Below, one piece after another: positions 10,209-57,601 of a DNA stretch of 64,000 nt; within the stretch, counting starts at the first letter, position 1, and each line of letters begins with the position of its first letter. Below the pieces are notes generated by a model. That model was not told the origin of the DNA, searched no databases, and saw only the letters and a program-made list of their open reading frames with translations. A program made the position numbers and the translations under genes. The DNA comes from Caulobacterales bacterium (GTDB taxonomy: Bacteria > Pseudomonadota > Alphaproteobacteria > Caulobacterales > Caulobacteraceae), in contig JACPDR010000011.1 of NCBI GenBank assembly GCA_016183935.1, positions 62,001 through 126,000 of the forward strand, in the 5' to 3' direction.

Positions 10209-10279
10209 GAGGAGGCCGGTGGCGGCGGCGCCCCGCGTTCGGGCCCCGCGTCCGAGACCCCCGGCCCGCCAGCCGGCGC

Positions 10280-12052: not shown

Positions 12053-12117
12053 GGGACCTCCTGCAGGGTCAATCGCGCCGTCGGGCGGCCGCGTCGTTGT
12101 CGGCGCGCAAGCTCCGC

Positions 12118-12588: not shown

Positions 12589-12601
12589 GGCTGTCGCCGC
12601 C

Positions 12602-12615
12602 TTGCGCCAACGCAA
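12602..12615 (-). promoter_or_regulatory. NnrR-type palindrome between nnrS and the DUF454 gene
   Basis: TTGCGCCAACGCAA has perfect TTGCG/CGCAA half sites. It lies two bases past the nnrS stop codon and upstream of the DUF454-decarboxylase-ubiTUV-aroQ run. A class II activator at this site would start transcription near 12567. Confidence 0.72.
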
Positions 12616-12617
12616 GG

Positions 12618-13799
12618 TCAGGTCGACCGCCGCCACAGCATCGGCCCGTAGGCGGCGACGAAGCCCGAGAAGGCCAGCGCCCACAGCGTCGCCGAGATCG
12701 CCAGCAGGACGATCGTCCATTCGGCCAGGAACGGGGCCGACACCCGCACGACCGCCGCCGACAGGATCAGCAGGTAGATGGCGGTCGTCGAACGGTCGGC
12801 GACCCGCGGCCGGCCGGTGTGTCCCCGCGTGGCCCGGGTCATGATGCCCAGGGTCTCGACGCCCATGGCGCCCGTGGTCAGCGCATGGATGCCCGCGGTG
12901 AACGGAACGGCGGCCGGGGCCAGCGCGGCCAGTCCGAGCAGGATCAGCCCCACGCCGAGCCAGGCGTAGCCGAGGTGGAGAATCCAGACGAGCGCCTCGC
13001 GCCGCGCCAGCCAGCCGCGCCAGCGCGCCAGTCGGACCAGGTTGGCTCCGCCGGCCAAGGCCAGGGCGACGCCGGTGATCGGCGACAGCGGCGCCGCCAC
13101 CCAGGCGACGAGCGCCACGCCGGTCACCGCGAGCACGCCGGCGTCGAGGCCATTGAAGGCCGTCGGCCCCTTCAGGATCCCGTGGGCCTGGGTCCAGTTC
13201 TGGGTGAAGCTGGGGGTCACCCGGCCGCCGATCAGGGCGATCAGGCCGGTGACGACCGCCACGGCGGCCCGCTCGGCGCCCGGGCCGAACAGCGGAAACG
13301 CGCCGCGCAGGTGGAAGGCGATGTTGGCCGCCGCCAGCGCCGACACCAGCAGGCAGACCGGCAGGTTGCGCCGGTTCCTGGCCGCCAGCACCTCGCGCCA
13401 GATGAGGCCGGCGAAGACGACGAGGAAGGCGCTGTCGGTCACGGCCGCGGGGACGGCCATGGAGGCCGGAAGGAAGCCGGCCGCCCGGCCCGCCGCCCAC
13501 AGGGCGAACAGGCCAGCCAGTTTCGCGCCGGTCACCGGCAGGCGGCCGGTCCAGTTGGGCACGGCGGTCAGCAGGAAGCCGGCGATGACCCCGGCCAGAT
13601 AGCCGAACAGCATCTCGTGGATGTGCCAGAGGCGGCCGTCCATGGCGCCCACGGTTCCATCGCCGAGCGACATCGACCCGACCCAGACCGGCACGGCCAC
13701 AGCGGCCCACGCCGCCGAAAACAGGAAGAAGGGCCGGAAGCCGAAACTGAACAGGGGCGGGCCGGCGTACCGACGGAGAGACTGGGCGGTCGTGGCCAC
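12618..13799 (-). CDS. nnrS: NnrS family membrane protein
   Basis: NnrS is a haem- and copper-containing membrane protein linked to nitric oxide stress and found with nir/nor genes. The product (about 393 residues from a GTG at 13799) has around 12 membrane segments. Family features include FRPFFLFSAAWA near the N-terminus, WHIHEMLFGY, GFLLTAVPNWTGR and a region with TPSFTQNW. The GTG start is preceded by a good ribosome-binding site (AGAGGAT); the longer frame would run into the norB end. It is 73 bp downstream of norB and probably shares its promoter. Confidence 0.92.
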   Translation of the reverse strand: MATTAQSLRRYAGPPLFSFGFRPFFLFSAAWAAVAVPVWVGSMSLGDGTVGAMDGRLWHIHEMLFGYLAGVIAGFLLTAVPNWTGRLPVTGAKLAGLFALWAAGRAAGFLPASMAVPAAVTDSAFLVVFAGLIWREVLAARNRRNLPVCLLVSALAAANIAFHLRGAFPLFGPGAERAAVAVVTGLIALIGGRVTPSFTQNWTQAHGILKGPTAFNGLDAGVLAVTGVALVAWVAAPLSPITGVALALAGGANLVRLARWRGWLARREALVWILHLGYAWLGVGLILLGLAALAPAAVPFTAGIHALTTGAMGVETLGIMTRATRGHTGRPRVADRSTTAIYLLILSAAVVRVSAPFLAEWTIVLLAISATLWALAFSGFVAAYGPMLWRRST

Positions 13800-13872
13800 G
13801 GGAAAACATCCTCTGGAAAAGAAACGGCGGGGAGAGGCGAACCCCTCCCCGCCCCGTACGCTGGCGAGCCGG

Positions 13873-43721: not shown

Positions 43722-44515
43722 TGGCCGGGGCGGCGAGCTCCGGGCGCGGGACGAAGCCGCAGCGGGTCGATCCGGACGATGACGCGGTCGTGCGCCTGTC
43801 CGCCGTCCCGCGGGACGGCGGCGCGACCGCCATCGGCCGGGTGATGCTGGAGGTCGGGGAGGAGCGGATCCCAGTCGAGATGACCGTGCCCGCGGGCCCC
43901 GTCGCGGTCGAGGACGTGCTGCCGATTCTGCACGGCCTCAGCAGCCTGTTCGCGACGCGGGCGACCGCACGGGCCGAGGCCGACGGGCGGGAGATTTCCT
44001 GCCGCGCCGGCTGCGGCGCCTGCTGTCGGCAGCTGGTGCCGGTCGCCCCCGCCGAGGCCCGCGCCCTGGCCCGGCTGGTCGAGGCCATGCCCGAGCCCCG
44101 GCGCGAGCGGGTGCGCCGCCGCTTCGACGCGGCCCTCGACATCCTGGAGCCGCTGGGCCTGATGGAGCGGCTGGACCAGAACCGCGACGATCGCCAGGTG
44201 ATCGCGCGGGAGTATTTCGCCGCCGGCGTCGCCTGTCCCTTCCTTGAGGACGAGGCCTGCTCGATCCACGCGGACCGCCCGTTGTCGTGCCGCGAATATC
44301 TGGTCACCTCGCCGCCGGACCTGTGCGCCGCCCTATCTCCAGGTATCGAGAAAGTGACTCTCGAGGCGCGGCCATCGCTGGCGCTCCTGAATGCCGATCT
44401 CCGCGACGGTTGGCTGCCGCTGGTACTGTCGCTGGTCCAGGACGCCCAGGCGCCGCCTTCGCCGCGTGACCAACCGGCGGCTGACATCCTGAAACAGGTG
44501 ATCGGCGGCCTGTGA
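43721..44515 (+). CDS. YkgJ-family zinc/iron-chelate-binding protein
   Basis: The 264-residue protein has the CxxCxxCC-type cluster CRAGCGACCR near residue 87 and later CPFL, CSIHADRPLSCREYL, the signature of the YkgJ family of metal-cluster proteins. The start is taken at a GTG (43721) that overlaps the stop codon of the preceding gene by one base. The family may modify or chaperone metal sites; the role is unknown. It continues the operon of the secreted proteins. Confidence 0.75.
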   Translation: MAGAASSGRGTKPQRVDPDDDAVVRLSAVPRDGGATAIGRVMLEVGEERIPVEMTVPAGPVAVEDVLPILHGLSSLFATRATARAEADGREISCRAGCGACCRQLVPVAPAEARALARLVEAMPEPRRERVRRRFDAALDILEPLGLMERLDQNRDDRQVIAREYFAAGVACPFLEDEACSIHADRPLSCREYLVTSPPDLCAALSPGIEKVTLEARPSLALLNADLRDGWLPLVLSLVQDAQAPPSPRDQPAADILKQVIGGL

Positions 44516-44649
44516 TACCGGGCCGGCACTCCGTCATCACGGACGAATGCCAACTTTATCTCTTGTGTGAGGCGCCCGATTGCCCACCCGCAAAGCGGAC
44601 GTCTTCAAGTCCTGCGAGGGGTCAGGCTCCAACATTCGACGAAGTCGGC

Positions 44650-44738
44650 ATCGCGCCAGGGGCGGACATTGGCGCGCTTCCGAAAAGCGGACGTTCATGC
44701 TGAGCCAGGTCGAAGGGCTGCTTTCGACCCATTGCGGA
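44650..44738. repeat. Dispersed intergenic repeat, copy B
   Basis: Aligns with copy A at 38617-38703: CGCGCCAGGGGCGGACATTG, AAAGCGGACGTTCATGC, TGAGCCAGG and GCTTTCGACCCATTGCGG correspond in order and spacing. It fills most of the gap between two genes. Confidence 0.65.
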
Positions 44739-44812
44739 CTATGGGTGTTCGATTGTCCCTGATGCGAAGGTCGGCCAAGCTGGCAGAACAGCCATCGTCG
44801 AAGGAACGACAG

Positions 44813-45349
44813 ATGAGACACAACCATTTGGCCCGATCAGTGCTCCTCGGGACCGCTATCGTTCTGCTGGGCGGCCTACCAGCCATGGCGTGCAGCCGGG
44901 GTGTGCCACCGCGACTTTCGGGCGAGACAGATGAGCAGTGGATGGCGCGGGGGCGCTCCGTCGAGCAAGCACGGTTCCTGGCAGAAGCCGATACCGTCTT
45001 TCTGGCTGAGCTAAGTATGATGAAGCGTGTCGGCGCCTCGGACGTTGAGACCACCTTCACGCCTGTCGTCCACCTCGCCGGCGACGATGTGCCGACCATA
45101 CCCCTGACCTCGCGCGACCATGAAGGTAACACATGTCGCAGGCCCGAGCGGGTGGGCGACACAGTAGTGGTTTACGCTGAACGAACCCAAGCAGGCTATT
45201 CGATCGTCGGCTTGGTTGCTGATCTTGAGATAATCGACAGGGGAATGATCCGGACGATCCGTGCAGCGGCGCGTGGTCAACTCCCGAACCCGTATATCCC
45301 GATTAGGTTCTACAACCCGCTTCGATGTCCGCTCGCCACCCTTAGGTGA
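44813..45349 (+). CDS. Hypothetical secreted protein
   Basis: The 178-residue product has a signal peptide (RSVLLGTAIVLLGGLPAMA, then CSRG), possibly a lipoprotein because a cysteine follows the hydrophobic stretch. Cysteines recur at about 27, 112 and 173. No family is recognised. A purine-rich site (GAAGGAACGACAG) precedes the ATG. It is bordered by dispersed repeats on both sides, typical for a small stand-alone gene in this mosaic region. Confidence 0.6.
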   Translation: MRHNHLARSVLLGTAIVLLGGLPAMACSRGVPPRLSGETDEQWMARGRSVEQARFLAEADTVFLAELSMMKRVGASDVETTFTPVVHLAGDDVPTIPLTSRDHEGNTCRRPERVGDTVVVYAERTQAGYSIVGLVADLEIIDRGMIRTIRAAARGQLPNPYIPIRFYNPLRCPLATLR

Positions 45350-45427
45350 CTGACGGCTCCCGACCCTTAGCGGACCTTCCGCTTCCTCCGCTTGTGGCAA
45401 ACCTGCGGTTCTGGGAAGGATGGTCCC

Positions 45428-45691
45428 ATGACCAAAGAGCACTATCCTGACGCTATCCCTGCCGATGAAATCGTCGATGAGATCGGGAAGCGAAGGGTCG
45501 CCCATCCAGTGTTTCGCTATGGCTACGAGTGCCTGTTCATCGCAGCGAAATCGACCAGACCTTCCATGGAGTTCTCGCTTCTTCCGGCAGACCTCAACTC
45601 CCCGGATTGGAGATCATACGTCGTTCAGCAGGTTGGACGCGCAAAGGAAGACGCTCGCGATGGCGAGACCGTCTACTTTGATGCTGACTGA
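45428..45691 (+). CDS. Small hypothetical protein
   Basis: The 87-residue protein is soluble and acidic (MTKEHYPDAIPADEIVDEIG at the start, ETVYFDAD at the end). A GAAGGATGG site precedes the ATG. No family is recognised. It is followed by the repeated phrase GCCGACCCTTAGCGGAC, also found just before it. Confidence 0.5.
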   Translation: MTKEHYPDAIPADEIVDEIGKRRVAHPVFRYGYECLFIAAKSTRPSMEFSLLPADLNSPDWRSYVVQQVGRAKEDARDGETVYFDAD

Positions 45692-45754
45692 TTTTTGTCC
45701 GCTACCCACCCTTAGGCGGCGGTCGGCTGCCGACCCTTAGCGGACTTTTCCGGC

Positions 45755-46330
45755 CTATAAATTGAGTGGATGGGTCGGCAGCCAATCCGAGTGCTGGGCG
45801 GCCATCCGCTGAACGGCGTCGGCGTCTGGCAAGAAGAGATCAATGCCGCCGTCATATGGGGCGAAGATCGCCCCATCCGTCCCCATCCATAAAGTCGGCC
45901 CCGCCTTCTCTTCGGCTATGGCCAGAAGCAGCTCGTCGAACCGACCGGGCGACCAGCGGACTTGCGCGGCATACACTCGCCAAGGACGCCCCTCTTCGCC
46001 ATCGTCTTCAAGAAACTCGAAGGCGAAATCCAGTTTCCAGTCGCGCGTGGCCCGGAACGGATCGTGTTGTTGGTCTGCCGCGTCCCGTTCTCCGGCGTGC
46101 AATATCCAGTGGGCTTGCACGAGCCAGCAGGGGCGGTCGCCGAGCACTTCTGAAGCCAGCACATTCTGGCGGCCCAACAACAACAAGCGTTCTTCGTCCG
46201 TGTCGGCATACCGTTTCGACGCCGGGAGTGAATGAAAGCGAAGACGGTTTGCCGCTCCCTCGCCAAGGAGCATCCAGCCTATCGGTCGTTCACCAGGGTG
46301 AGACTGCGCCCAATCATTTTCGAATGACAT
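45755..46330 (-). CDS. DUF3885-like hypothetical protein
   Basis: The 191-residue protein has a central WLVQAHWIL, an RWSPGRFDELLLAIAEE helix and a C-terminal FAPYDGGIDLFLPD, which resembles the end of DUF3885 proteins (PYDGG-D). The start is placed at 46330 (MSFENDWAQ). The function is unknown; DUF3885 genes often occur near toxin-immunity or other accessory loci, but no toxin is seen here. Confidence 0.6.
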   Translation of the reverse strand: MSFENDWAQSHPGERPIGWMLLGEGAANRLRFHSLPASKRYADTDEERLLLLGRQNVLASEVLGDRPCWLVQAHWILHAGERDAADQQHDPFRATRDWKLDFAFEFLEDDGEEGRPWRVYAAQVRWSPGRFDELLLAIAEEKAGPTLWMGTDGAIFAPYDGGIDLFLPDADAVQRMAAQHSDWLPTHPLNL

Positions 46331-46410
46331 TGGTGGAGCGTAGCAGGGGAACAGCTTGATGTCCGCTTCCCACCCTTTGGCGACCGTCTGCTGCCGACCC
46401 GAAGCCGACC

Positions 46411-46854
46411 TTACCGCAAGCGAGCGCGGAGGCGGGGAAGCTCGGCAGCGAGGCTTTCGTGCGAAAAGATGCCCAAGTTCACATCGCTGCACGTCATTGT
46501 GAGAAGAATGCGGCGAGGGAAATCGCCTTGGTCAAGCGGAGCCCACCCGCCACGCCCCTGTAGGGGGCTTGCCCGCTTACGGTCGTCGTCGTCAAAATCC
46601 TGCGTTTGGAGAACGCGGATGCGCTCCCTAGCGCAATCCATTTCAACAATGCTGTCCCTGCGCACGATCTCCCAACCCTCCACCGGGGCGAGATAGACCT
46701 CTACTAGCGTTGCTCGCCGGATCGCGCCTTTGCGATCGATACTGTCAGTCGGGGTGAAATAGGCGGTGCGATCACTTACCATCAAGATGATGCCACGCGT
46801 GTCGAGAGAGGGAGCGGTCTGAACCGACAGGGCGAGGAGAAGCGACATAAGCAT
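46411..46854 (-). CDS. Hypothetical secreted protein
   Basis: The 147-residue protein starts with a signal-like segment (MLMSLLLALSVQTAPS) and has SDRTAYFTPTDSIDRKG, ATLVEVYLAP and VEMDCARERIR. This pattern (a modified phrase about colour/charge-exposed strands with one conserved Cys) is seen in small surface-adhesin-E-like proteins of Caulobacterales, but the match is loose. No partner gene is evident. Confidence 0.5.
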   Translation of the reverse strand: MLMSLLLALSVQTAPSLDTRGIILMVSDRTAYFTPTDSIDRKGAIRRATLVEVYLAPVEGWEIVRRDSIVEMDCARERIRVLQTQDFDDDDRKRASPLQGRGGWAPLDQGDFPRRILLTMTCSDVNLGIFSHESLAAELPRLRARLR

Positions 46855-47080
46855 TCGCTATTGGCTCCTATCGGGGGCCCTCCGTCAACGCGCACCCTTT
46901 TCGGAAGTACCGCTGACCCCACACCCGTGCTTAGTGCCCTCCGGCCTGACGACCGTTGCGGCACGAAGGTGACAGTTCAGAGACTGATCTCGGCCAAGCG
47001 GCTCAGCCCGCCATTTCGCTATGACCGCTTTCCACCCCAAGGCGACAACGACCGGGTCCGCTTTCGGGCCCGGCCGTGAG

Positions 47081-47713
47081 TCACAGATCAATCTGTTCTG
47101 ACATCTCCAAGGCGTCGTCCACCTCGATGCCTAGGTACCTGACGGTGCTCTCCAGCTTCCTGTGGCCGAGCAGGAGCTGGCAGGCGCGAAGGTTGCCAGT
47201 CTTCTTGTAGACGAGAGACACCTTCGTGCGCCTGAGGCTGTGGGTCCCGTAGCCCTGCGGTTCCAGGTCGATCATTCGAACACACCGATCGACGAGCCGG
47301 GCATACTGCCGCGTGCCGATGTGCTGACCCGGCCGGCTGCGGCTCGGGAACAGCCAGTCATCTTCACGCTCGCCGCGGACCTTCAGCCAGGTCGCGATCG
47401 CATCGCGCGCAGGCTCGGTGATCTCGAACGGCACCGGCCCCCCCGTCTTCTGCTGGATGACGATCGAACGCTGGCGAAGCGCGCCGCCGGGCGCCACGTC
47501 GCTAACCCGGAGCCGAACCAGGTCACAGGCCCGCAGCTTGGCGTCGAGCGCGCAGTTGAACATCGCGAGATCGCGCACTCTCCTCGCGACCTTCAGTTGC
47601 TGTCGAATGGCCCAGATGTGTTTCGGCTTGAGCGGCGCCTTTGGGCCGATCAGGCGGCCGGCGTTCCATGGGCGCTTCGGTTGGGTGAACAGGTCAGACT
47701 GGCGCATGGCCAA
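47081..47713 (-). CDS. Tyrosine recombinase / site-specific integrase, intact
   Basis: The 210-residue enzyme lacks the usual N-terminal arm-binding domain and is close to the catalytic core alone. Catalytic residues are R61 (KLRACDLVRLR), H158 and R161 (HSLRRTK), H184 (LLGHRKLEST) and nucleophile Y193 (VRYLGIEV). Short recombinases of this kind are frequent in accessory regions of Sphingomonadales and Caulobacterales. A frameshifted relative lies at 39297-39918 in the same orientation. The 7.8 kb between holds the secreted-protein cargo. Confidence 0.9.
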   Translation of the reverse strand: MAMRQSDLFTQPKRPWNAGRLIGPKAPLKPKHIWAIRQQLKVARRVRDLAMFNCALDAKLRACDLVRLRVSDVAPGGALRQRSIVIQQKTGGPVPFEITEPARDAIATWLKVRGEREDDWLFPSRSRPGQHIGTRQYARLVDRCVRMIDLEPQGYGTHSLRRTKVSLVYKKTGNLRACQLLLGHRKLESTVRYLGIEVDDALEMSEQIDL

Positions 47714-47769
47714 CCTCCTCTGAAGCTGGCCTCCCTGTCGCAGTTCATCCTACGCTCGCGGCAGCTCTT

Positions 47770-47821
47770 CAGCGCCATAAGCAGACATTCGCCGGCAGGC
47801 GAGAAGCCGACATTCACCTGG
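47770..47821. repeat. Dispersed intergenic repeat, short copy
   Basis: AGCGCCATAAGCAGACATTC followed by AGAAGCCGACATTCACC, the same order of motifs as the larger copies A and B. It lies upstream of the intact recombinase. Confidence 0.55.
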
Positions 47822-47987
47822 GGGGAAGTTCGCCTTCGGACCGAGCCACTCTCCGGTTGTTTAAATCAGGAGGGTTCTGGTTTTCACAACTCGCTGATCC
47901 CCGACACGCCTTTCTTCGCCCTACGGCTGACGCAACCCACTCGCCGCGTCCGGTCTGGGGCGCGACGCAGACACATCAAACCCGCCG

Positions 47988-50120
47988 CTACTCCGCCCCG
48001 CCGAACCGGTAAGACAGCGTCCATCTCAATTGGGGACCATCTCCCCTCGCCTCCAGCCGCTGCTCAAACTCAGGTGTGGTCAGCGCAAACGTCTGGTCCC
48101 CGCTGTCGAACAGGTCAGAAATGGTCAAAACCGACACGAGCCGACTGGTAATCGGCCGCCGCCAGCTCAGGCTAGATTGGAAAACTGCCGAACTGGTCGT
48201 CTGATAGCCTTGGGATTCCCCCGAGTAGCGAAGCGACCACTGGAAGGTGTCGCTCATCGGGTCGGAGCCGAGCGGTTTGAACGACATCGCCAAGTTCGTG
48301 CTGAACTCGATGAACCCCTCCCTAGCCAGCGCACCGCTGACCAGCACATCCTGTTCCGAGTGAAAAATATTCGCCGTCGCGAGAAGTCGGTAACGGTCCG
48401 AGAGAGCCCGCCGCATCGATAGCTCCAAGCCCGTATTGGCCCGCGTCCCCGCATTGACGAAGGTCTGAACGATGATCTGCTCGGCGTTCAGGTTGAAGGA
48501 TGCTTGCCAAACATCGGAAGTGACGCGGCGATACAGCGTCGCGCTCGCGTTGTTGTCACCGGAGGCATATTCGACGCGTGCTTCGAAAGCGTCTGTGAAC
48601 TCCGGAGCGAGGCCCGGCGAGCCGACCGAAACATTCGTCGCGCTGGAAAACACGGGCCTTGGGTCTAGCCGGCCCAGGTCGGGACGATTGACTCTGCGCG
48701 AATAGCTTAGATTGAGCTTCCAATCTGCCGAGATCGGACGCCTCAGATGTAGGCTTGGGAACAGATCTATCTCGTCCTCACGGTCGAGCGCCGTGTCACC
48801 GATTTCATACGCCGACCGCTCGATCCTCAAGCCCGGCATCACTGTCCAATCAGACGTAGGCCACTGCATTGAGCCGTAGGCCGCCCAAAGCCTCGTGTCA
48901 CCGCTCAGACCGCTCTCTTCACCTGGCAGTCCCACATCGGTCAGACGAGAGATGAGTTGGCTTTCGGTGTCGAAGGCGACGCCTGCCTTGAGCACCAGTT
49001 CGTTCGCCCCATCGTACTCAACCGAAGCAGCGAGCGAGGCCTTGTCAGTCGAATAGCGGGAGGACATGCCGAACAGTTGCTGAGGCGCAGAGGGGTTCGG
49101 GGTGCGGATGTATGCGTCCTCGGAGAGAAAATCGTTTGAGGAGATTGTACCGGATATCTTGGCCAACAAGCGGTCGTCGAGCGACTTGGTCCTGTACTCA
49201 ATGTTCGCGTCAGCAGTGTCTATCACAGCTTCGCCCAGCAAGATTTCCTCGTACTCCGTCGAGATCGAACCGCTAAGTATCCGGGCAAAGGCGTTGCGGT
49301 TCTCGGAGCGCACATGACCGATGGTTCCGCCCCAGGTCAGTGACCGTCTCTCATCAAACGCATAGGTAGCGGTCACGCCGAGCGCAGCATTGTTTCCCGA
49401 CTGCCGGAAAGCCGATGTCTCCGAGACATCTGCGATCGCCGGCGAAAAGGCGTCTCGAAAGAGCGAGCGATCCTGTTGCGACGCTGCTTCTTCAAGCGAC
49501 ACGTTGCCCGTTACCGTAAGTCTCCCGACGCTCGTTGAGGTCGACACCGAGAGCCGCATATCCCCCAAGGTGCCCGCGCGACCCAGTACGTTACCAGACA
49601 GTCCGATCGGCCTTCGACGTTTGGTGATAACGTTTACGACTCCGCCCGTGCCCTGGGCCCGAAACTCCGCTGACGGGTTTGTCATCACCTCGACGCGATC
49701 CAAATCCGATCCCTGAAGCACCCGAAGCGCCTCAACATTCGCGGCGGGCTTGCCGTCGATGAGGACGGTGGCCGTGCCTTGGCCGAGAAGAGTGATTGTC
49801 CCGGATAACGTGACGGAAACGGACGGGAGGCGACCGATCACTTCGAGAGCTGTGCTGCTCTGCGAGAGCGGATCGCGAGCGACATCGTAGACGCGGCGAT
49901 CAATACGGTCGGTCTGGGATTGGACGGGGGCCACGACCTCAACGTCTTCGAGCTGGACCGGGCCAGCGTCGGGGGACTGCGGCGCCGGCGAACCCTCCTG
50001 CGGCGCCGACTCATCCCCCGTCGCATCCTGTGCCGATGCAGCCTGCGCTGAGGCGAGCGTCGGCAATGCCGCGCTTAGGCAGATGAGCAACGCTCTCTTA
50101 AAATGAATGCCCACCCGCAC
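47988..50120 (-). CDS. TonB-dependent receptor of the Cys-rich RiPP cluster
   Basis: The receptor (about 710 residues from a GTG at 50120) has a signal peptide (ALLICLSAALPTLASAQA), a Pro-rich linker, a plug domain (VEVVAPVQ, LPSVSVTLSGTITLLGQG, VLIDGKPAANVEAL, DLDRVEVMTNPSAEFRAQG-T, GGVVNVITK) and a beta-barrel ending in SYRFGG. This is the outer-membrane beta-barrel receptor group. The GTG is preferred for its GAGG site and because it leaves room for a promoter opposite the divergent radical SAM gene; an ATG at 50189 is the alternative. It may import, or export, the peptide product. Confidence 0.85.
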   Translation of the reverse strand: MRVGIHFKRALLICLSAALPTLASAQAASAQDATGDESAPQEGSPAPQSPDAGPVQLEDVEVVAPVQSQTDRIDRRVYDVARDPLSQSSTALEVIGRLPSVSVTLSGTITLLGQGTATVLIDGKPAANVEALRVLQGSDLDRVEVMTNPSAEFRAQGTGGVVNVITKRRRPIGLSGNVLGRAGTLGDMRLSVSTSTSVGRLTVTGNVSLEEAASQQDRSLFRDAFSPAIADVSETSAFRQSGNNAALGVTATYAFDERRSLTWGGTIGHVRSENRNAFARILSGSISTEYEEILLGEAVIDTADANIEYRTKSLDDRLLAKISGTISSNDFLSEDAYIRTPNPSAPQQLFGMSSRYSTDKASLAASVEYDGANELVLKAGVAFDTESQLISRLTDVGLPGEESGLSGDTRLWAAYGSMQWPTSDWTVMPGLRIERSAYEIGDTALDREDEIDLFPSLHLRRPISADWKLNLSYSRRVNRPDLGRLDPRPVFSSATNVSVGSPGLAPEFTDAFEARVEYASGDNNASATLYRRVTSDVWQASFNLNAEQIIVQTFVNAGTRANTGLELSMRRALSDRYRLLATANIFHSEQDVLVSGALAREGFIEFSTNLAMSFKPLGSDPMSDTFQWSLRYSGESQGYQTTSSAVFQSSLSWRRPITSRLVSVLTISDLFDSGDQTFALTTPEFEQRLEARGDGPQLRWTLSYRFGGAE

Positions 50121-50193
50121 CGCCGCCTCGCTCGAACTACCTTGACAGTTGCTCTGCTCCGCGTCCACATCCTTAGCGGGGGCAGTCAAGAAA

Positions 50194-51357
50194 ATGCAAT
50201 CAGTTCTAGAGGCGATGGCCGTGAAGGACCAGAACGAGCCATCAGGCTCGGTGACGTCTGTCCAGGTGGCGCAGGCGGTTTCGCCGCGGCTTCAGGAACT
50301 CATTCTGCTGCCGACCGAGAAATGCAACTTGCGATGCACCTACTGCTACGAAGATTTCAAGATCGGTCGTATGTCAGAGACGACTCAGCGCAGCGTCGAG
50401 CTCTATCTCGAGCAGCGGGTGCCGCAGCTCACCAGCCTCCGTTTCAGCTGGTTCGGCGGGGAGCCTCTGGTAGCGAAGGACATCGTGCTGAGACTTTCGC
50501 GGTTTGCGAACACTCTTTGCGACCGCAACGGCGTGGAGTTCCTAGGTGGCCTCACGACCAATGCTTATCATCTGGATATAGAGACTTTCAAAGAACTTCT
50601 GGCCTGCGGGCAGGATTTTTTTCAGATCACGCTGGATGGCTGGCGTGAGAAGCACGACCAAGTCCGTCGGTTCGCCAACGGTCGCGGCAGCTTTGATAGG
50701 ATTTGGTCGAATCTGATCGGTCTCAAGGCGGTAGAGTCGGACTTTGAGATTCTTCTTCGCATACATGTTCGCCGCGACAATATCGACAGCCTGCCAACGC
50801 TAATCGAGAAGGTGGCCGAAGAGTTTGGCGGCGACCGGCGATTCCGACTGGACTTCGAGCATCTGCGGGATCTTGGCGGTGATGGCGGTCGCACCATCGT
50901 TGACGGCGTGAGCTACGAGGAATTGGGGTCAATCGAGCAACCCCTCAGGGAGCTCTACTATAAGGCGACGCACGCCAAGCACGATCTGGACGACCAAGTC
51001 ACGACCGGACGGCGGGAGGCCGATGCGGTCTTCGCGGAAGCCAAGGCATCCGGGGAATCCGCTGGAAGTCAGCGTCTGTCTGACATTGCCGCAGGGGGCC
51101 CGTACATTTGCTATGCCTCCAAACCCAACTCGCTGCTGATCCGAGCTGATGGCCGGATTGGAAAGTGCACAGTCGCTCTGAACGACAGGCGGAATGATAT
51201 CGGCCGGCTGAACCCGGACGGGACGCTCGCTATCGATAATCCGAAACTTCGGCCTTGGATCAGGGGCTTTGAGCATCTTGACGAGAGTGTTCTCGGGTGT
51301 CCGCTAGCAGGATTACCGGGCGCGCTTGAGAAAGAACTACAACTGATACCGGCGTGA
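50194..51357 (+). CDS. Radical SAM peptide-maturase with reduced SPASM-like C-terminus
   Basis: The 387-residue enzyme has the radical SAM cluster motif CNLRCTYC at residues 44-51 and the expected FSWFGGEPL, GGLTTNAYHLD and FFQITLDG elements. The C-terminal part has three cysteines (ICYA, IGKC, GCPLAG), fewer than a full SPASM domain. It lies 25 bp before two Cys-rich precursors, so it should form thioether or other links in them. The start is taken at ATG 50194; an ATG at 50215 or a TTG at 50149 is possible. DNA here is visibly lower in GC than the flanks. Confidence 0.9.
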   Translation: MQSVLEAMAVKDQNEPSGSVTSVQVAQAVSPRLQELILLPTEKCNLRCTYCYEDFKIGRMSETTQRSVELYLEQRVPQLTSLRFSWFGGEPLVAKDIVLRLSRFANTLCDRNGVEFLGGLTTNAYHLDIETFKELLACGQDFFQITLDGWREKHDQVRRFANGRGSFDRIWSNLIGLKAVESDFEILLRIHVRRDNIDSLPTLIEKVAEEFGGDRRFRLDFEHLRDLGGDGGRTIVDGVSYEELGSIEQPLRELYYKATHAKHDLDDQVTTGRREADAVFAEAKASGESAGSQRLSDIAAGGPYICYASKPNSLLIRADGRIGKCTVALNDRRNDIGRLNPDGTLAIDNPKLRPWIRGFEHLDESVLGCPLAGLPGALEKELQLIPA

Positions 51358-51382
51358 AACTGAAGCAGAGGAGGGGTTTGAC

Positions 51383-51643
51383 TTGAAACTTTCGTTTGGC
51401 GACCTCGTACTGGACGAGCTTGGGCGGGTCATATTGAGCGATGCGGATCTTGGCGAGATTGAGGACCTGGGCCTTGTGTCAGTTGGTGGAACGGACGGTC
51501 AGATCAACAGCGGTACGTGCGTCAATTCGGCCAGCTGCGCTGCTACGACCAATGGACAATGCACCAACACTCAAGGTGCCTGTGAGAGGTCCAACAACAC
51601 CAAGTGTCCAACAAAAGATGAGATGGAAACTATAGAGCCCTAG
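51383..51643 (+). CDS. Cys-rich RiPP precursor 1
   Basis: The 86-residue peptide has a leader (residues 1-36, LDELGRVILSDADLGEIEDLG, then VSVGG) ending in a double glycine for the C39 peptidase, and a core with five cysteines (46, 52, 60, 67, 75) among Asn, Thr and Ser. It starts at a TTG with a strong GGAGGGG site. The leader shares LDE-GR--LSD-DL---DLG-VS--GG with precursor 2. The core shares NGQC and N-T-K-C. This is the proposed substrate of the radical SAM enzyme. Confidence 0.85.
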   Translation: MKLSFGDLVLDELGRVILSDADLGEIEDLGLVSVGGTDGQINSGTCVNSASCAATTNGQCTNTQGACERSNNTKCPTKDEMETIEP

Positions 51644-51651
51644 GAGGGAAT

Positions 51652-51933
51652 ATGAATTCGATTGATCTTACGGGTTTCGAGCTGGACGAATTTGGCAGAG
51701 CTCGCCTATCGGATGAAGATCTAAAGCTACTTGACGATTTAGGTCGCGTGTCTCTCTCAGGCGGAGACGGTGTAAACGACAGCTGCGGCGGCACAAACAA
51801 TTCGTGCCGCAACGAAATCAAATGCGACGGCAGCTCCAATGGGCAATGCGCCAACGCTGGAACCTGCCATACCACCAGCAACACGAAGTTTTGCAGCAAT
51901 ACGGGCGAAGAGCAGATCGAGGTCCCTCCTTAA
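51652..51933 (+). CDS. Cys-rich RiPP precursor 2
   Basis: The 93-residue peptide is the partner of precursor 1: same leader layout (LDEFGRARLSDEDLKLLDDLG, SLSGG at 34-38) and a core with six cysteines (45, 52, 58, 66, 72, 81), including SNGQCANAGTC and SNTKFC. An AGGAGGG site lies 8 bp upstream. Cys spacing differs from precursor 1, so the two give distinct products from one enzyme. Confidence 0.85.
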   Translation: MNSIDLTGFELDEFGRARLSDEDLKLLDDLGRVSLSGGDGVNDSCGGTNNSCRNEIKCDGSSNGQCANAGTCHTTSNTKFCSNTGEEQIEVPP

Positions 51934-51946
51934 GAATCTCCCGCAC

Positions 51947-54073
51947 ATGTCGTCATCGAAAAGCCGACAGCCCAAAATGTCGTGGCGAGAACCTGTATTT
52001 GAATTACAGGCCGAGCCAGCGGATTGCGGTTATGTAGGCATTAGCGTTCTGCTCGCGTTCTTGGGCATCCGGCGAAGCGTGGCGGAAATTAAAACAGAAG
52101 GCGGGCTCACCTCGCGAGGTCTCTCGGTTCGTCAGGCCCGCCAAATCTTACAACGGTATAATGTTGAAGCCGACGCGGTCTACTTCGACCGCACCAGATC
52201 GGAAGCCTACCCCTGTCCAGGCCTCTTGCTACTCTCCAAGGGGCACTACATCGTTCTCGTGCGCAGGGTCGGGGATGCCTTCCACTCTTATGACCCGAAC
52301 TTCGGGTGGCATAAGATCACCCGGCAAAAACTCGCTCGTCTGACCCAGGGCATCGGGATTGAGGTGGCGTTGCCGACTTCAGCGCGTTTGACGCCGCCCA
52401 CGATCCCACCCTTACCTTCCTTTTTTTGGTCGCTGTTTGGCGGAAGGTTGGGGTGGCTCGCGGTCGCCGCCATCGCAATGACCCAGGTCGTGGCGTTGTC
52501 CTTGCCTCTACTGTCTCAGCGCTCGATCGATGAACTTGGCGCTCGACTAGACCCCTCCTTCCTTGGCATGGTCGGGTTAGGGTTCGTCTTGATTTCGGCG
52601 CTCAGCATGCTCACCAGCTTCGTGAGCACTGCGCTTGGTCTCAAGATTTCTCGGCGCGCTGCGCGTCGCCTCGGCCAACATACCTTCGACCGACTCGCCC
52701 GCCAGCCGGTCTCCTGGTTTACCAGAACCAGCCCAGCCTCGATCCAGTACCAGATCGCCGGCCTCGACCTCCAATATTCGCTCGTAGGCGAGATCATCCG
52801 AGTTGTGATTACCATCTGCGTGACACTGACGTTTGGTCTCCTCGCATTCCTCGTCGTATCACCTTGGCTCGCCATACCCGGCCTTATCGGCGCCGCGATC
52901 AGCATCAGCGTCGATCTGCTGTTCAACAGGATGCAGTTGTCGCTGCAGCATAACTCGATGCAGTCGATGCAGCGACGTTCCGCCCTGAACTACGATCTAC
53001 TGACTCAGATGCCGCTGCTCGCCCGGTTCGGCGCGCTGGCGCGAGGGCGCGCGCGCTATGCGAGTGTCATATCTAAGAGCAATGCGGTCGACGCCAGGCT
53101 GCAAACCCTTCGGAACTGGAAGACTCTCGTCCTCGGGATCGTGAGGTCAGCCGACGCTCTCGTCTTTGTCACCCTTTCCTCCGTCCTCATGGTTCGAGGA
53201 AACTATTCTCTGGGGGCCTTTGTCGCTGTCGGCGCATACAAAGATCTCGTCGCGCAATCGCTGCTCAGCGCATTCGCGCTAAGACAAAGGATCAAGCACA
53301 CTGAGGGCCATCGCCTTCAAACGAGAGATTTACTCGCTGTAGATCTGAGCGTCCCTCCGACAGGGGGCGTCAGGATAGAGGAAGGTCGGGTCGAGTTTTC
53401 GGCCGTATCATTCAGCTACGGATCCCTGGATCGGGAAATCCTCAGGAACGCCAACCTCACGATTGAACCGAAACAGTGCGTCGTCATACGCGGCGAGTCC
53501 GGCATCGGAAAGTCGACTATCGCTCGCCTCCTGTCCGGATCCGTTGAACCGATGTCTGGTCAGGTCAAAATAGACGGCCAGGTCGTGGCCCACCCGATCA
53601 TGGGCTTCGGGGCCGTTCTTCAGGAGGATCGGCTCATTTCCGGGTCCATTCGCGAAAATGTGTTGTTGTATCGGGACGGCTTCAACGACGCGGCCGTGTA
53701 CGCCGCGCTCGAGTGTGCAGAACTCGACGAGTTTGTTCGCGGCCTGCCGATGAAGCTGGAGTCCCAAGCGACGGAGCACAGTGGTGGTCTCTCGGGCGGA
53801 CAACGGCAACGACTTCTGATCGCTCGCGCCGTCCTCGGCACCCCGAAGTTGGTCGTTCTCGATGAGGCGACCGCGTCACTGGAAGTCGAGCGCGAGCGCT
53901 CCATCGTTAAACGCTTGAAAAGCACAGGCGCCACCCTCGTTATCGTTTCCCATAGGCCAGAGGTGTGGTCGCTGGCCGATCGGCTGTTGGAAGTTACCGA
54001 CGGAATCATCCGCGAAGTCCCGGTTGTGTCTGGTCTCGCCCCAGCTCGGGCGGCCGAGACCGGTCGGTTTTGA
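51947..54073 (+). CDS. Peptidase-containing ABC exporter (PCAT, C39 type)
   Basis: The 708-residue protein removes the leader after the double glycine and exports the product. The N-terminal C39 peptidase has C27 (EPADCGYVG), H100 (SKGHYIVL) and D116 (YDPNFGW). About six membrane segments follow (residues 165-450). The ATPase part has Walker A GESGIGKST, the signature LSGGQRQR, Walker B LVVLDEAT and the switch SHRPE. It starts 13 bp after precursor 2. Together with the radical SAM gene this is a complete maturation and export unit. Confidence 0.95.
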   Translation: MSSSKSRQPKMSWREPVFELQAEPADCGYVGISVLLAFLGIRRSVAEIKTEGGLTSRGLSVRQARQILQRYNVEADAVYFDRTRSEAYPCPGLLLLSKGHYIVLVRRVGDAFHSYDPNFGWHKITRQKLARLTQGIGIEVALPTSARLTPPTIPPLPSFFWSLFGGRLGWLAVAAIAMTQVVALSLPLLSQRSIDELGARLDPSFLGMVGLGFVLISALSMLTSFVSTALGLKISRRAARRLGQHTFDRLARQPVSWFTRTSPASIQYQIAGLDLQYSLVGEIIRVVITICVTLTFGLLAFLVVSPWLAIPGLIGAAISISVDLLFNRMQLSLQHNSMQSMQRRSALNYDLLTQMPLLARFGALARGRARYASVISKSNAVDARLQTLRNWKTLVLGIVRSADALVFVTLSSVLMVRGNYSLGAFVAVGAYKDLVAQSLLSAFALRQRIKHTEGHRLQTRDLLAVDLSVPPTGGVRIEEGRVEFSAVSFSYGSLDREILRNANLTIEPKQCVVIRGESGIGKSTIARLLSGSVEPMSGQVKIDGQVVAHPIMGFGAVLQEDRLISGSIRENVLLYRDGFNDAAVYAALECAELDEFVRGLPMKLESQATEHSGGLSGGQRQRLLIARAVLGTPKLVVLDEATASLEVERERSIVKRLKSTGATLVIVSHRPEVWSLADRLLEVTDGIIREVPVVSGLAPARAAETGRF

Positions 54074-54119
54074 TGGCTGGCGCAGTCGCGTCTGCCCGCT
54101 CATCAGGCCGCTTTAGGAA

Positions 54120-54323
54120 ATGCAACGGCGGCTAAAGGCGGGAATCGCGCTCGCCCAGGCGGATCGACTAGATCCCGCGCTCAGGGCGACCTTCATCGAC
54201 CCTGTCGGCGAGATCGAGCTTCCGGATGAGCCGGAGGATTCTTTCGACCCCGACGCCCCCACACCAAGGCCACGTCCTGCGGCCGACTATTGGCCGAGGC
54301 CTTGGTGGACTCAGAAGCGCTAG
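54120..54323 (+). CDS. Possible small hypothetical protein after the exporter
   Basis: A 67-residue frame with acidic and Pro-rich sequence (LPDEPEDSFDPDAPTPRP) and a Trp-rich end (YWPRPWWTQKR) starts 46 bp after the exporter gene. No family is recognised. The gap and composition allow a real gene in the same operon, but this is not certain. Confidence 0.35.
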   Translation: MQRRLKAGIALAQADRLDPALRATFIDPVGEIELPDEPEDSFDPDAPTPRPRPAADYWPRPWWTQKR

Positions 54324-54608
54324 GGGCTAGCAGCGTCAACGTCCCTTTATCCCCGGGTCACCGCTCGTCGAGCATGGCTTGGGCTGTTCCGGGGCAACAA
54401 GGGAGATTCATCCGTCGGGCCGTTCATACGGATGGCTGGACGTGCCCGATCGGCAATCATTGGAAGGGATCGACTATTCGACCTCGGTTCTCGCCCGGGC
54501 GAACAATGCCGCGTGCTGGGTTCGGCTGAGCGCCATGAGCAGACATCAGGACCACGTCTGAAAGCCGACCTTCGTTGAGCGCGCCGTCGCTTGGTATTAA
54601 GCAACGGC
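54324..54608. other. Intergenic region with a dispersed repeat
   Basis: No gene is seen in this 285-bp stretch. At 54528-54580 it holds GAGCGCCATGAGCAGACATC followed by GAAAGCCGACCTTCG, another short member of the dispersed repeat family. The rest shows no clear structure. Confidence 0.5.
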
Positions 54609-55292
54609 ATGCCTGCGCCGACTGCCCAACTTGAACTCGGTCGAGACGGTGCTGAGCTGGCACCCAACGCGCTCGAAAGCTCCACACTCGCTGCCTTGGA
54701 ACAGGTACTCGATGGCCAGCCGCGCGACGTCGCCGGCGTCAGGCTTTTCGGCGTGGAAGGGGTGCTGGACTTCCTCGCCACCAACGGCCCGATCGGCAGC
54801 CTCGCCGCCTGGCGTCTTGGTGAGATGGCGCGGCCGGTGCGGGCGATCCTTTTCAACAAGACAGCCTCCGCGAATTGGGCGTTGGCCTGGCATCAAGACC
54901 GCGTGATTGCGGTGCGGGAGCGAGAGGAAGTGGAAGGCTTCGGACCTTGGACGCGCAAGCATGGCGCGCTGCATGTCGCGCCACCGTTCGAGCTGCTAGC
55001 CGGTATGCTCACCCTGCGCGCCCACCTCGACCCTGTGCCTCAGACCAACGCTCCACTACTTGTCGCGCCGGGGTCGCACCGCTTTGGCAGGATCCCGGAG
55101 GCGGATGTTCCCGAAGTGGTGTGCAAGTGCGGCGTCGCCATGTGTCTGGCTGAAGCGGGCGACATCTGGATCTACGCGACGCCGATCCTGCACGCGTCCG
55201 ACAGGGCGTCCGTCGCGACGCACCGCCGAGTCCTACAGGTGGACTATGCCGTCGGTGATCTTCCCGGCGGACTGCAGTGGCTTGGCGTCTGA
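54609..55292 (+). CDS. PhyH-like (phytanoyl-CoA dioxygenase family) oxygenase
   Basis: The 227-residue protein has the iron ligands of the Fe(II)/2-oxoglutarate fold: H and D in WHQDRVI (about residues 98-100) and a distal H in LHASDRA, with R in HRRVLQVDY. Other features are APLLVAPGSHRFG and GDIWIYATPILHAS. The family hydroxylates varied small molecules. It stands alone after the RiPP unit; a link to the peptide product is possible but not shown by the sequence. The ATG at 54609 is chosen; a TTG lies 18 bp upstream. Confidence 0.75.
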   Translation: MPAPTAQLELGRDGAELAPNALESSTLAALEQVLDGQPRDVAGVRLFGVEGVLDFLATNGPIGSLAAWRLGEMARPVRAILFNKTASANWALAWHQDRVIAVREREEVEGFGPWTRKHGALHVAPPFELLAGMLTLRAHLDPVPQTNAPLLVAPGSHRFGRIPEADVPEVVCKCGVAMCLAEAGDIWIYATPILHASDRASVATHRRVLQVDYAVGDLPGGLQWLGV

Positions 55293-55413
55293 GACGCGCC
55301 AAGTGCGGACATTGATCGGTGGTCAGGAACCGGACCGTCGGTGCGCTGCGGCCAGAGCGTCCGCTTTGATGTGGCCCTGTATGGCGGCTCACGATCACCG
55401 AGCCCCGACACGA

Positions 55414-55818
55414 TCAGCTTGACCCCAGCTCCTGGATTACGGGGCAGCGGATTTCGTTTCCGTCACGACAGTCGGCGACGGCTTGCTGCAACACGCCCCG
55501 AAGGCGTTGCAGATCGACGATCTTTGCGTCGATGCTCGCGATGTGCTCCTGAGCCATATCGCGCACCTCGCAACAGGCTTGGACCTCCGGCTCGCTTAGC
55601 GCGATCAGCCGTCGAATGGCGTCGATGCTGAAGCCGAGTTCCCGAGATCGGCGGATGAACCTCAAGCGCTGGGAATGACCTGGCGCATAGCTTCTATGGC
55701 CACCCTCCGTTCGGGCGGGGGCCGGCATGAGTCCGATCCGCTCGTAGTAGCGCACCGTCTCCAGATGCACACCGGCGCTGCGCGCCAGGCGTCCGATGGT
55801 CAAAATCTGTCTGCGCAC
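55414..55818 (-). CDS. merR: MerR, mercury-responsive regulator
   Basis: The protein (134 residues from a GTG at 55818) has the MerR helix-turn-helix (IGRLARSAGVHLETVRYYERIGL) and coiled coil. The three Hg(II)-binding cysteines are present: one of the CC pair in VQACCEV, C in AVADCRDG and C in IRCPVI, the last two as in MerR of Tn21. The GTG start gives a usual length. It is divergent from merT, with the operator between. It should act as a repressor without Hg(II) and an activator with it. Confidence 0.9.
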   Translation of the reverse strand: MRRQILTIGRLARSAGVHLETVRYYERIGLMPAPARTEGGHRSYAPGHSQRLRFIRRSRELGFSIDAIRRLIALSEPEVQACCEVRDMAQEHIASIDAKIVDLQRLRGVLQQAVADCRDGNEIRCPVIQELGSS

Positions 55819-55822
55819 GCTC

Positions 55823-55853
55823 TTGATCCCGTAGTGGCTACGGGTTGTAGCGT
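55823..55853 (+). promoter_or_regulatory. MerR-controlled promoter with 19-bp spacer
   Basis: A -35-like TTGATC (55823-55828) and a -10-like TAGCGT (55848-55853) are 19 bp apart, the over-long spacing of MerR promoters. The dyad CCCGTAG-TGG-CTACGGG (55828-55844) fills the spacer. It drives merT on the plus strand and covers the start of merR. Confidence 0.8.
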
Positions 55854-55876
55854 GTATCAGATGAAACAGGAGGTCC

Positions 55877-56263
55877 ATGGTGACCGATCAAAACCGCCCT
55901 CGCATTCCTGAAGTCGCCGTCAGCGCCTCGGCGGCTGTCGGTGGGCTTGCCTCCGTCTTCGCTTGGGCGGCCTGCTGCGTTCTTCCCTTGGCCCTGTCGG
56001 TGGCGGGCGTGTCGTTCGCCGGCGCTGCCCTGATCGCGGGTGCGAGAAACTGGCTGACGCTCGTCGCCGGCGTCCTCTTGGCCGCAGGTTGGTTTCTGCA
56101 TTGGCGCCGTCGTCGAATGTGCCGTCAGGACGCAGCCTGCGCCCGGCCGTCGCCGCTGGTCTTCTGGCTGCTGGCCGTCGCCTCGGTGCTGATGGTGCTG
56201 TCCTTGGCGTGGGAGCCTATAGTCGAGCCGTGGGCGATGCCCCGACTGGCGGCCATGCGATGA
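55877..56263 (+). CDS. merT: MerT-like mercuric ion transporter
   Basis: The 128-residue membrane protein has three membrane segments and the paired cysteines of MerT in the first (FAWAACCVLPLALSV). A second Cys site (MCRQDAAC) lies in the loop after the second segment. MerT brings Hg(II) in for reduction. The ATG overlaps nothing upstream and begins 24 bp after the -10 of the MerR promoter. Its stop overlaps the next ATG by 4 bp. merP is not present. Confidence 0.85.
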   Translation: MVTDQNRPRIPEVAVSASAAVGGLASVFAWAACCVLPLALSVAGVSFAGAALIAGARNWLTLVAGVLLAAGWFLHWRRRRMCRQDAACARPSPLVFWLLAVASVLMVLSLAWEPIVEPWAMPRLAAMR

Positions 56264-56481
56264 CCTCCATTATCGTCTTGGAGTCCACCCTGACCTGCCC
56301 GACCTGCGGACATGTGGCGACTGAAACCATGCCCACGGATGCCTGCATCTGGTTCTACGACTGCGCCGGCTGCGGGACCAAACTGAAACCCAAGCACGGC
56401 GATTGTTGCGTTTTCTGCTCGTACGGCGATGTGGCGTGTCCCCCGATCCAGGCGGGCGGCCGCGACGCATGTTGCGGGTAG
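56260..56481 (+). CDS. Small Cys-rich protein of mer operons (GDCCVFCSYG family)
   Basis: The 73-residue protein has CPTCGH near the start, CAGCGTKL and the hallmark GDCCVFCSYGDVACPP, ending in DACCG. Such proteins recur beside merT and merA in alphaproteobacteria and are thought to handle mercury or another metal. It overlaps merT by 4 bp. Confidence 0.8.
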   Translation: MTSIIVLESTLTCPTCGHVATETMPTDACIWFYDCAGCGTKLKPKHGDCCVFCSYGDVACPPIQAGGRDACCG

Positions 56482-56508
56482 AACGCACCCTGTGAACGAG
56501 GACACGCC

Positions 56509-56700
56509 ATGGTCGCCTACGACCTGATCGTCATCGGCAGCGGCACGGCCGCCCAGGTTGCCGTCAGCCGCATCCGCGCCGCCGGATGGTCCGTCGCAGT
56601 CATCGATCATCGCCCGTTCGGCGGGACCTGCGCGCTGCGCGGCTGCGACCCAAAGAAGATGCTGGTCAGCGGCGAGGAGGCGATCAGCTCGAGAAATTAG
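56509..56700 (+). pseudogene. merA: Truncated mercuric reductase (merA), N-terminal remnant
   Basis: The 63-residue frame starts with the FAD-binding LIVIGSGTAAQVAVSRIRAA and includes the redox pair GTCALRGCDPKKM, as in MerA-type flavoprotein disulfide reductases (about 470-560 residues). It stops right after GEEAIS because unrelated sequence begins near 56684. Without the rest it cannot reduce Hg(II), so the operon would import Hg without detoxifying it. Confidence 0.9.
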
Positions 56701-56774
56701 CTCAACTCCACGAACGCGGCGTTCTCACTGATTCCGAGTTCCAAGCTCAAAAAACTAAGCTTCTCGCGAGCTAG
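56682..56774 (+). pseudogene. SHOCT-domain tail joined to truncated merA
   Basis: In another frame the stretch encodes DQLEKLAQLHERGVLTDSEF followed by QAQKTKLL and a stop, the C-terminal SHOCT motif normally found at the end of oligomerising proteins. Nothing upstream in that frame belongs to such a protein. It marks a recombination joint with the end of another gene. Confidence 0.75.
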
Positions 56775-56942
56775 GTCCGGCGGGCCTTTGAGCTAGGAGC
56801 GGACATTCCAAGCCCACCGGGAAGCAGTCGCGGCAGGGGAACTTCCGAAGGTGCTTGCCGGACGAAGGCGTCTTTTCGGTCATGTAAGAGGTCTCTGTCG
56901 ACGCGAACGACGGAGGCCATAGGGTGTTTTGGGGGGACTACG

Positions 56943-57455
56943 ATGAGACACTGGGTTTTGCTGGCAGCGCTGAGCGCAGGCTGTTTTGCCTCTGCCCCCT
57001 CACAGGCTCAGAGCTGCTACGAGAGCGTAGTTCGCTCCCCGTCGCCGTTTTTGGGAAACCATGACGAGATCTTTCGCCTGCAAGACGGCACGATTTGGCA
57101 GGTCCAGCACGAGTACGAGTACCTCTATGAGTACTACCCCTCGGTGGTGATTTGCCCTGCTCGAGGGGCGCTGGTGATCAACGGAAAACGGCTGGCCGTT
57201 AGACAGCTGAACGGCTCAGCCACGCCGGACGGTGGAAGCGACCTGATCGAGTCACGTATCGACGGTGAGTTTTCCGGCTGGGATGGAGAGACCGTTTTCA
57301 AGCTCGCTAACGGCCAGATTTGGCAACAGGCGAGCTATGACTACGAGTACCACTACGCGTACAGCCCTGAGGTATTTATCGTCCGGACAGGTGGTCGTTT
57401 TATGATGACCGTCGAAGGCGTTGATGACCCAATCCGAGTGATCCGCCTCCGGTAG
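56943..57455 (+). CDS. Secreted protein with two Tyr-rich repeats
   Basis: The 170-residue protein has a signal peptide (RHWVLLAALSAGCFASAPSQ-AQ) and two copies of a repeat: FRLQDGTIWQVQHEYEYLYE followed by YYPSVVI, and FKLANGQIWQQASYDYEYHY followed by AYSPEVFI. The shared form is F-L-G-IWQ-x5-YEY-x-Y-Y-P-V-I. No known family is recognised. The pattern resembles small beta-strand proteins of unknown role. Confidence 0.65.
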   Translation: MRHWVLLAALSAGCFASAPSQAQSCYESVVRSPSPFLGNHDEIFRLQDGTIWQVQHEYEYLYEYYPSVVICPARGALVINGKRLAVRQLNGSATPDGGSDLIESRIDGEFSGWDGETVFKLANGQIWQQASYDYEYHYAYSPEVFIVRTGGRFMMTVEGVDDPIRVIRLR

Positions 57456-57601
57456 GCTTGGAATGGTAGCGAGCCTGAAGTCCTATCAGCGCCAGTTGCG
57501 GACGTTGATGCAGCTCCTGACACCGGACGGTGGCTTCGGGCCGCTCGTCACACCATTGCCTACGGCGGCGCTGAAAGTTACACGGGCGTTGGAGCCTCGA
57601 T

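Follow-up and report, generated by a model that had tools for sequence, protein, structure and literature searches.

A five-gene radical SAM unit with two Asn-Cys-patterned precursors, a C39 exporter and a TonB-dependent receptor in a Caulobacterales bacterium

Several described systems bear on a five-gene unit carried by a Caulobacterales bacterium (assembly GCA_016183935.1, contig JACPDR010000011.1), in which a radical S-adenosylmethionine (SAM) enzyme, two small Cys-rich precursors and an exporter made of a C39 peptidase fused to an ABC transporter lie next to a divergently oriented TonB-dependent receptor. The unit occupies positions 47988-54073 of the stretch of DNA that was analysed, hereafter the window, which is 64,000 nucleotides long. 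Among the ribosomally synthesized and post-translationally modified peptides (RiPPs), the ranthipeptide NxxcA of Streptococcus orisratti and its maturase NxxcB are described as forming an S-C-beta link between a Cys and the Asn three residues upstream (PMC13361665, PMC8326336). In freyrasin, the thioether acceptor is reported to be an Asp (PMC11002830). The Itf cluster of Bacteroides thetaiotaomicron is presented, in the same source, as a combination of a radical SAM enzyme, a C39/ABC protein, a TonB-dependent transporter, a precursor and a YcaO enzyme (PMC11002830). Methanobactin operons are described as encoding a RiPP together with an exporter and a TonB transporter for re-uptake (PMC3621798), and isopeptidase-type lasso peptide clusters are cited as RiPP loci that also include a TonB-dependent transporter (PMC9266682).

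The unit shares some features with each of these systems and differs from all of them. Like NxxcA/NxxcB as described, it combines a radical SAM maturase with Cys residues paired with an upstream Asn, but the account of NxxcA gives one ring, whereas one precursor here carries five Asn-Cys pairs and the other six, the Asn mostly lying at -3 or -4. NxxcA is moreover streptococcal, no TonB receptor being expected in a Gram-positive bacterium, and the likeness is one of description and not of NxxcB sequence. The predicted presence of several thioether rings with one acceptor per Cys recalls freyrasin, the PapB ranthipeptide; however, the acceptor would be an upstream Asn instead of the Asp reported there. 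The radical SAM enzyme, C39-ABC exporter and TonB transporter are common to the unit and to Itf, while the YcaO enzyme, the amidine and the Trp-Ile C-C link belong, according to the published outline, to Itf; no YcaO match was found by Pfam among the proteins of the unit, and the other three parts are present. Methanobactin systems differ by MbnB/MbnC, a MATE exporter and copper-binding heterocycles, and no MbnB/MbnC-like Pfam match was found among the proteins of the unit. Lasso clusters differ by their lasso chemistry, an isopeptidase and a sigma/anti-sigma pair, none of which occurs among the genes of the unit. No paper on this exact gene set was found in the open-licence literature, most subscription papers lying outside that search. 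The original prediction, made from the DNA letters, did not recognise the arrangement; this stands for the exact set but not for its broader logic, already known from Itf (with YcaO) and, for a RiPP with a TonB transporter, from methanobactin. The chemistry and gene logic are not new in kind and extend a known peptide class. The new parts are the gene combination, the multi-pair Asn-Cys rule and the three-Cys enzyme.

The reading favoured here, which we hold with evenly balanced confidence, is that the unit makes a pair of Asn-Cys thioether peptides that are exported by the C39-ABC protein and recaptured by the TonB-dependent receptor. The complete unit with its divergent receptor had been proposed beforehand, and all five genes were found in place.

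The two precursors carry the main evidence. P1 (51383-51643, plus strand, start TTG) consists of a 36-residue leader ending in VGG (51383-51490) and a core with five Cys (51491-51643); P2 (51652-51933, plus strand, start ATG) consists of a 38-residue leader ending in SGG (51652-51765) and a core with six Cys (51766-51933). An AGGAGG-type sequence precedes both. As anticipated, the leaders match, sharing LDE-x-GR-x(2)-LSD-x-DL before the double glycine, and the cores differ, the two precursors being 44% identical. Ten of the 11 Cys of the pair (4/5 in P1, 6/6 in P2) follow an N-x(2-3)-C rule, that is, they have an Asn at -3 or -4; the Asn is at -3 for two of five Cys in P1 and for three of six in P2.

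This rule extends to related precursors. Candidate cores near homologous enzymes were listed by Cys count and place with no Asn criterion, and a RiPP-like leader was needed for a candidate to be kept. Seventeen cores were compared: the two of the window, two each from loci L167, L174, L175, L085 and L086, one from L089 and four from L046 (the pair of L087, identical to that of L086, was counted once). Asn occupies -3 or -4 for 79 of their 82 Cys, against 27.1 +/- 3.7 in shuffles that hold the Cys fixed, none of 5000 being as high. Split by position, Asn is found at -3 for 50/82 Cys and at -4 for 35/82. It is depleted at -2, -1, +1 and +3, and its excess at +2 and +5 is consistent with a repeat of the form N-x2-C-x-N-x3-C. 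The three misses are Cys67 of P1, the last Cys of L175b and the first Cys of L046a. Furthermore, eleven relatives were retrieved by sequence search with no hand choice, the window's own precursors (P0121 and P0122) being excluded from this count and from the linkage counts below. These relatives keep the rule at 52 of 59 Cys, and the seven misses all correspond to the fourth Cys of P1-type precursors, which has its Asn at -5. When aligned, the thirteen precursors made up of these eleven and the window's two have five Cys columns in common, along with columns of conserved Asn.

The cores had been said to look like thioether substrates, and the Asn-x(2-3)-Cys rule points the same way. Asn-Cys thioethers are predicted because NxxcB joins a Cys to the beta-carbon of a comparable upstream Asn. 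A short, fixed spacing with one Asn per Cys is what a ring between a Cys and an upstream Asn requires, and disulfides would not need it. An alternative is that the Cys remain free or form disulfides and that the enzyme does something else, for example epimerisation or S-C-alpha linkage. EpeE and further radical SAM folds also match the model of the enzyme; however, disulfides do not explain why, in cores that have diverged, almost all Cys have an Asn at -3 or -4, and we judge this alternative unlikely.

The radical SAM maturase (50194-51357, plus strand; PF04055, 8.3e-17) carries a CxxxCxxC motif (C44/C48/C51) and a reduced SPASM region. Ranthipeptides are defined by non-alpha thioethers that a radical SAM enzyme installs, and their known maturases carry a full SPASM domain. 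No SPASM Pfam match was found in the window's enzyme at E<=1, and C306, C325 and C369 are its only Cys beyond residue 230. The reduced C-terminal Cys set noticed earlier is thus borne out, these three Cys being invariant in a 29-sequence alignment that includes the window's enzyme. They are kept in all of 19 hand-chosen comparison enzymes. The extra CxxC-type block of full-SPASM relatives, which precedes the last Cys, is absent from 16 of the 19 and present in three Gram-positive enzymes; 14 of the 16 have no further Cys past residue 230, L174 having one more and L005 two. These alignments suggest that the second auxiliary cluster has been lost and that the first is kept with three Cys ligands, which would leave an open site. 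The best NCBIfam model, TIGR04463, gives 138.9 bits for a cut-off of 525, and the PapB ranthipeptide maturase model NF047865 gives 92.2 bits for a cut-off of 340; the geopeptide, CefB and Clo7bot maturase models likewise fall far below their cut-offs. With an AF2 model (mean pLDDT 82), structure comparison places CteB, anSME and ChlB tied at the top (VIA), and CteB also comes first in Foldseek.

The exporter (51947-54073, plus strand), a C39-ABC protein as had been predicted from its sequence, matches Peptidase_C39 (PF03412, 2.8e-11), ABC_membrane (PF00664) and ABC_tran (PF00005) and has Walker A and LSGGQ motifs. Its start very likely lies near 51947, the listed open reading frame overlapping P2. 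The peptidase is fused to the ABC part, both precursor leaders offer a GG site, and in the alignment the C39 domain has Gln, Cys, His and Asp at what we take to be its catalytic positions.

The favoured reading can be laid out as a sequence of steps. The leader would dock on the radical SAM enzyme, and the SAM radical would abstract a beta-hydrogen from an Asn. The Cys thiolate, bound where the three-Cys auxiliary cluster has its open site, would then close a small ring, so that P1 could acquire up to five rings and P2 up to six. The C39 domain would cut after the GG and the ABC part would export the peptides. Exit across the outer membrane is assumed to use a general housekeeping route, because no adaptor occurs among the genes of the unit. 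Finally, the receptor would import the ringed peptide via TonB, either free or with a cargo.

The receptor gene (47988-50114, minus strand) is separated from the enzyme gene by a stretch between the two divergent genes (50115-50193). Its product matches barrel families (PF14905, 3.5e-42; PF00593, 6.5e-19), with no match to a signalling domain, and no solved-structure relative was found by sequence at E 0.01. The open frame reaches a TTG at 50189, but the start is very likely near the GTG at 50114, where a signal-peptide-like sequence begins. This sequence, a plug-type region and a TonB-box-like EDVEVVAP were read by eye, and Plug (PF07715) scores above its cut-off in three linked receptors from related units. 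Import is the probable direction of transport because of the plug and the TonB-box-like segment, and by analogy with methanobactin and lasso clusters. The receptor could instead be an outer-membrane exit port that replaces a TolC/HlyD route. In Myxococcus, a TonB-type protein is said to be required for secretion (Oar/PopC), and no HlyD-type adaptor was seen in frame lists among the genes of four units (those of the window, L167, L174 and L175). The importer-type plug and TonB-box-like segment, as well as related clusters with no receptor match nearby, argue against such a port, which seems very improbable.

Another alternative, raised in the original prediction, is a metallophore, a peptide that would bind a metal outside the cell and be re-imported as methanobactin is described to be. 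The gene logic is that of methanobactin as outlined in the literature (RiPP, exporter, TonB transporter; PMC3621798). This idea nevertheless gained no positive support: none of the five proteins of the unit is metal-linked or resembles MbnB/MbnC in its Pfam matches, and no E. coli-type Fur box was found anywhere in the window at up to three mismatches, other metal boxes not having been searched. In addition, the thiolates would be consumed if each Cys pairs with an Asn, leaving few free ones. A metallophore is considered quite unlikely.

Homologues of the enzyme are numerous (2588 at 1e-20 among 7996 scored candidates, of which 120 were listed), and at least 80 homologue loci, mostly distant, were scanned. 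At more stringent thresholds, and with all genome counts including the window's own genome (2.93 Mb), the enzyme is found in 5/299 Caulobacteraceae genomes (1e-30), 2/229 genomes of the order (1e-60), 1/385 genomes of the class and 1/398 of the phylum (1e-40), and 2/101 near relatives (1e-15), one of these being a weak partial match. At 1e-40, it also occurs in 3/147 genomes of the family of Luteibacter, the host of L046. The full gene set is present in four of the five positive Caulobacteraceae genomes, the window's included, in three gene orders. L174 has the order of the window with a divergent receptor; L167 (genome G873) has the order precursor, enzyme, precursor, exporter, receptor; and in L175 (genome G844) one precursor is divergent and the receptor comes last. 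Relative to the window, these three units show 58-59% identity for the enzyme, 34-43% for the exporter and 25-30% for the receptor. In the fifth positive genome (G886, enzyme 35% identical), no receptor or exporter match was found on the 12.5-kb contig. The search for related precursors near radical SAM and receptor genes, suggested at the outset, thus returned several cases, and the association of the genes goes beyond chance, since in other genomes, too, the enzyme is accompanied by precursors, receptor and exporter.

The receptor gives a second view of this association. At 1e-30, it has 43 relatives, of which nine are 54-91% identical and the other 34 are 24-47% identical, the higher values being over short stretches. 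For seven of the nine close relatives, the longest contig is exactly as long as that of an enzyme relative among the 120 listed; linkage is here defined by this equal size of the longest contig and not by direct reading of the contigs. For six of these seven, a precursor was also found on a contig of equal size. In the seven matched pairs, enzyme and receptor identities to the window drop roughly in parallel, from 96/91% down to 70/53%. The two other close receptors, P0137 (79,944-base contig, 70%) and P0140 (9,430-base contig, 57%), have no matching contig among the 120 listed enzyme relatives and are possibly receptors without a producer. At 1e-90, the receptor occurs in 1/131 genomes of the genus and 6/299 genomes of the family; of the six family genomes, the window's own and G873 (L167) have such a receptor inside a unit, and the receptors linked to units in G844 and G1070 do not reach this limit. 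For five Caulobacteraceae receptors (L162-L166, 32-33% identical), the surrounding 12-17 kb that were retrieved contain no match to the enzyme or the exporter. Among the wider enzyme relatives, no receptor match was found by tblastn in the fetched stretches of L046, L023, L005, L085-L089 and L177; in L020 a receptor-like gene lies next to an enzyme gene truncated by the contig end, and in L029 and L041 such a gene lies 6-7 kb from the enzyme.

The GC content of the unit is 0.587, compared with 0.699 for the window outside 44500-57500. Because of this low GC and the rarity of the receptor in the genus, the DNA of the unit looks acquired, as had been suspected. Related loci also lie close to mobile DNA. 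The L175 unit (3362-14707) is flanked on both sides by IS240-type transposase genes. On a 192-kb viral contig, L089 (9989-13499) carries an enzyme (42% identical), one GG-leader Asn-Cys precursor and a C39-ABC protein, and the contig encodes a PHROG major head protein, a helicase and a ribonucleotide reductase; L089 is an apparent phage-borne RiPP unit. L085 (3445-4946), L086 (5588-7514) and L087 (9983-11909) each combine an enzyme and two Asn-Cys precursors next to a tail protein of PHROG 52, which gives them the look of prophage cargo, and L086 and L087 have a MacB/FtsX-type permease pair as well. In Luteibacter, L046 (9390-11824) has four Asn-Cys precursors around one enzyme gene, followed by FtsX/MacB-type permeases.

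This distribution bears on the main rival explanation, which overlaps with the chemistry of the favoured reading. According to it, the secreted ringed peptides would inhibit relatives, entering them by the same type of receptor, and the exporter would protect the producer. The rare, mobile-looking spread (5/299 Caulobacteraceae), the low GC, the transposases around the L175 unit and the related clusters on phage contigs suit such a role, and P0137 and P0140 fit receptor-bearing non-producers. However, none of the five genes of the unit is an evident immunity gene, and a producer that bears the receptor would sensitise itself, yet all four units keep it. Competition is regarded as rather unlikely, if still worth serious weight.

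Several points weigh against the reading of an Asn-Cys thioether pair that is exported and recaptured. The chemistry is deduced from sequence, and the Asn-Cys pairing could serve an S-C-alpha linkage or none. The 17 cores were hand-picked after the pattern had been noticed, with hand-trimmed starts for L175a, L046b, L046c and L046d. Cys67, the fourth Cys of P1, has its Asn at -5. Small Cys-bearing frames near L005, L006, L040 and L176, outside the 17, obey the rule in part, and no candidate frame was found by Cys count and place for L023, L088 and L177. A Tyr replaces the catalytic Asp in the C39 domains of L167 and L175, and the unit has no HlyD-type adaptor of its own. The window's receptor has no Pfam Plug match, and the import direction is borrowed from other TonB systems. 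The receptor would be dispensable for the chemistry, since enzymes with the same core (L046, L085, L086/L087, L089) have no receptor match in the fetched stretches. Lastly, a single clade of the four linked receptors was not supported: those of L167, L174 and L175 sit on tree branches apart from the window's, the tree, with several long branches, needing at least three changes. By this comparison, receptor and enzyme have not been strictly inherited together. Because the linked receptors lie on separate branches, receptors seem to have been newly recruited or exchanged next to a lasting set of biosynthetic genes.

Around the unit, a tyrosine recombinase gene (47084-47713) adjoins the receptor gene inside the low-GC stretch 44500-57500, and a prophage origin of the window's own unit was considered as a possibility in view of this gene. 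Downstream of the exporter gene, a phytanoyl-CoA dioxygenase-like gene (54591-55292) runs in the same direction. This gene and a 67-residue frame (54120-54323) were considered as members of the unit and rejected, neither having a tblastn match in L167, L174 or L175. Further on, 55417-56700 looks like a remnant mercury-resistance locus: it encodes a regulator of the MerR type, a frame whose weak likeness to MerT stays below the cut-off, and a short segment from the N-terminus of a pyridine nucleotide-disulphide oxidoreductase.

More broadly, the unit may represent a class of RiPPs in Gram-negative bacteria whose products are poly(Asn-Cys) thioether ladders. A radical SAM enzyme with a single three-Cys auxiliary site would make them in pairs, they would be exported and then recaptured via a dedicated but swappable TonB receptor, and mobile DNA, phages among it, would have spread the genes; this proposal is tentative and on balance doubtful. 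The N-x(2-3)-C pattern, with one Asn per Cys, is a one-line sequence rule that would predict how the rings are arranged in an uncharacterised family. The three-Cys enzyme, in place of the full SPASM set, may offer a small model for an open-site auxiliary cluster in thioether formation. Furthermore, with multi-ring Asn-Cys candidates encoded next to a TonB receptor, the use of such peptides by Gram-negative bacteria becomes testable.

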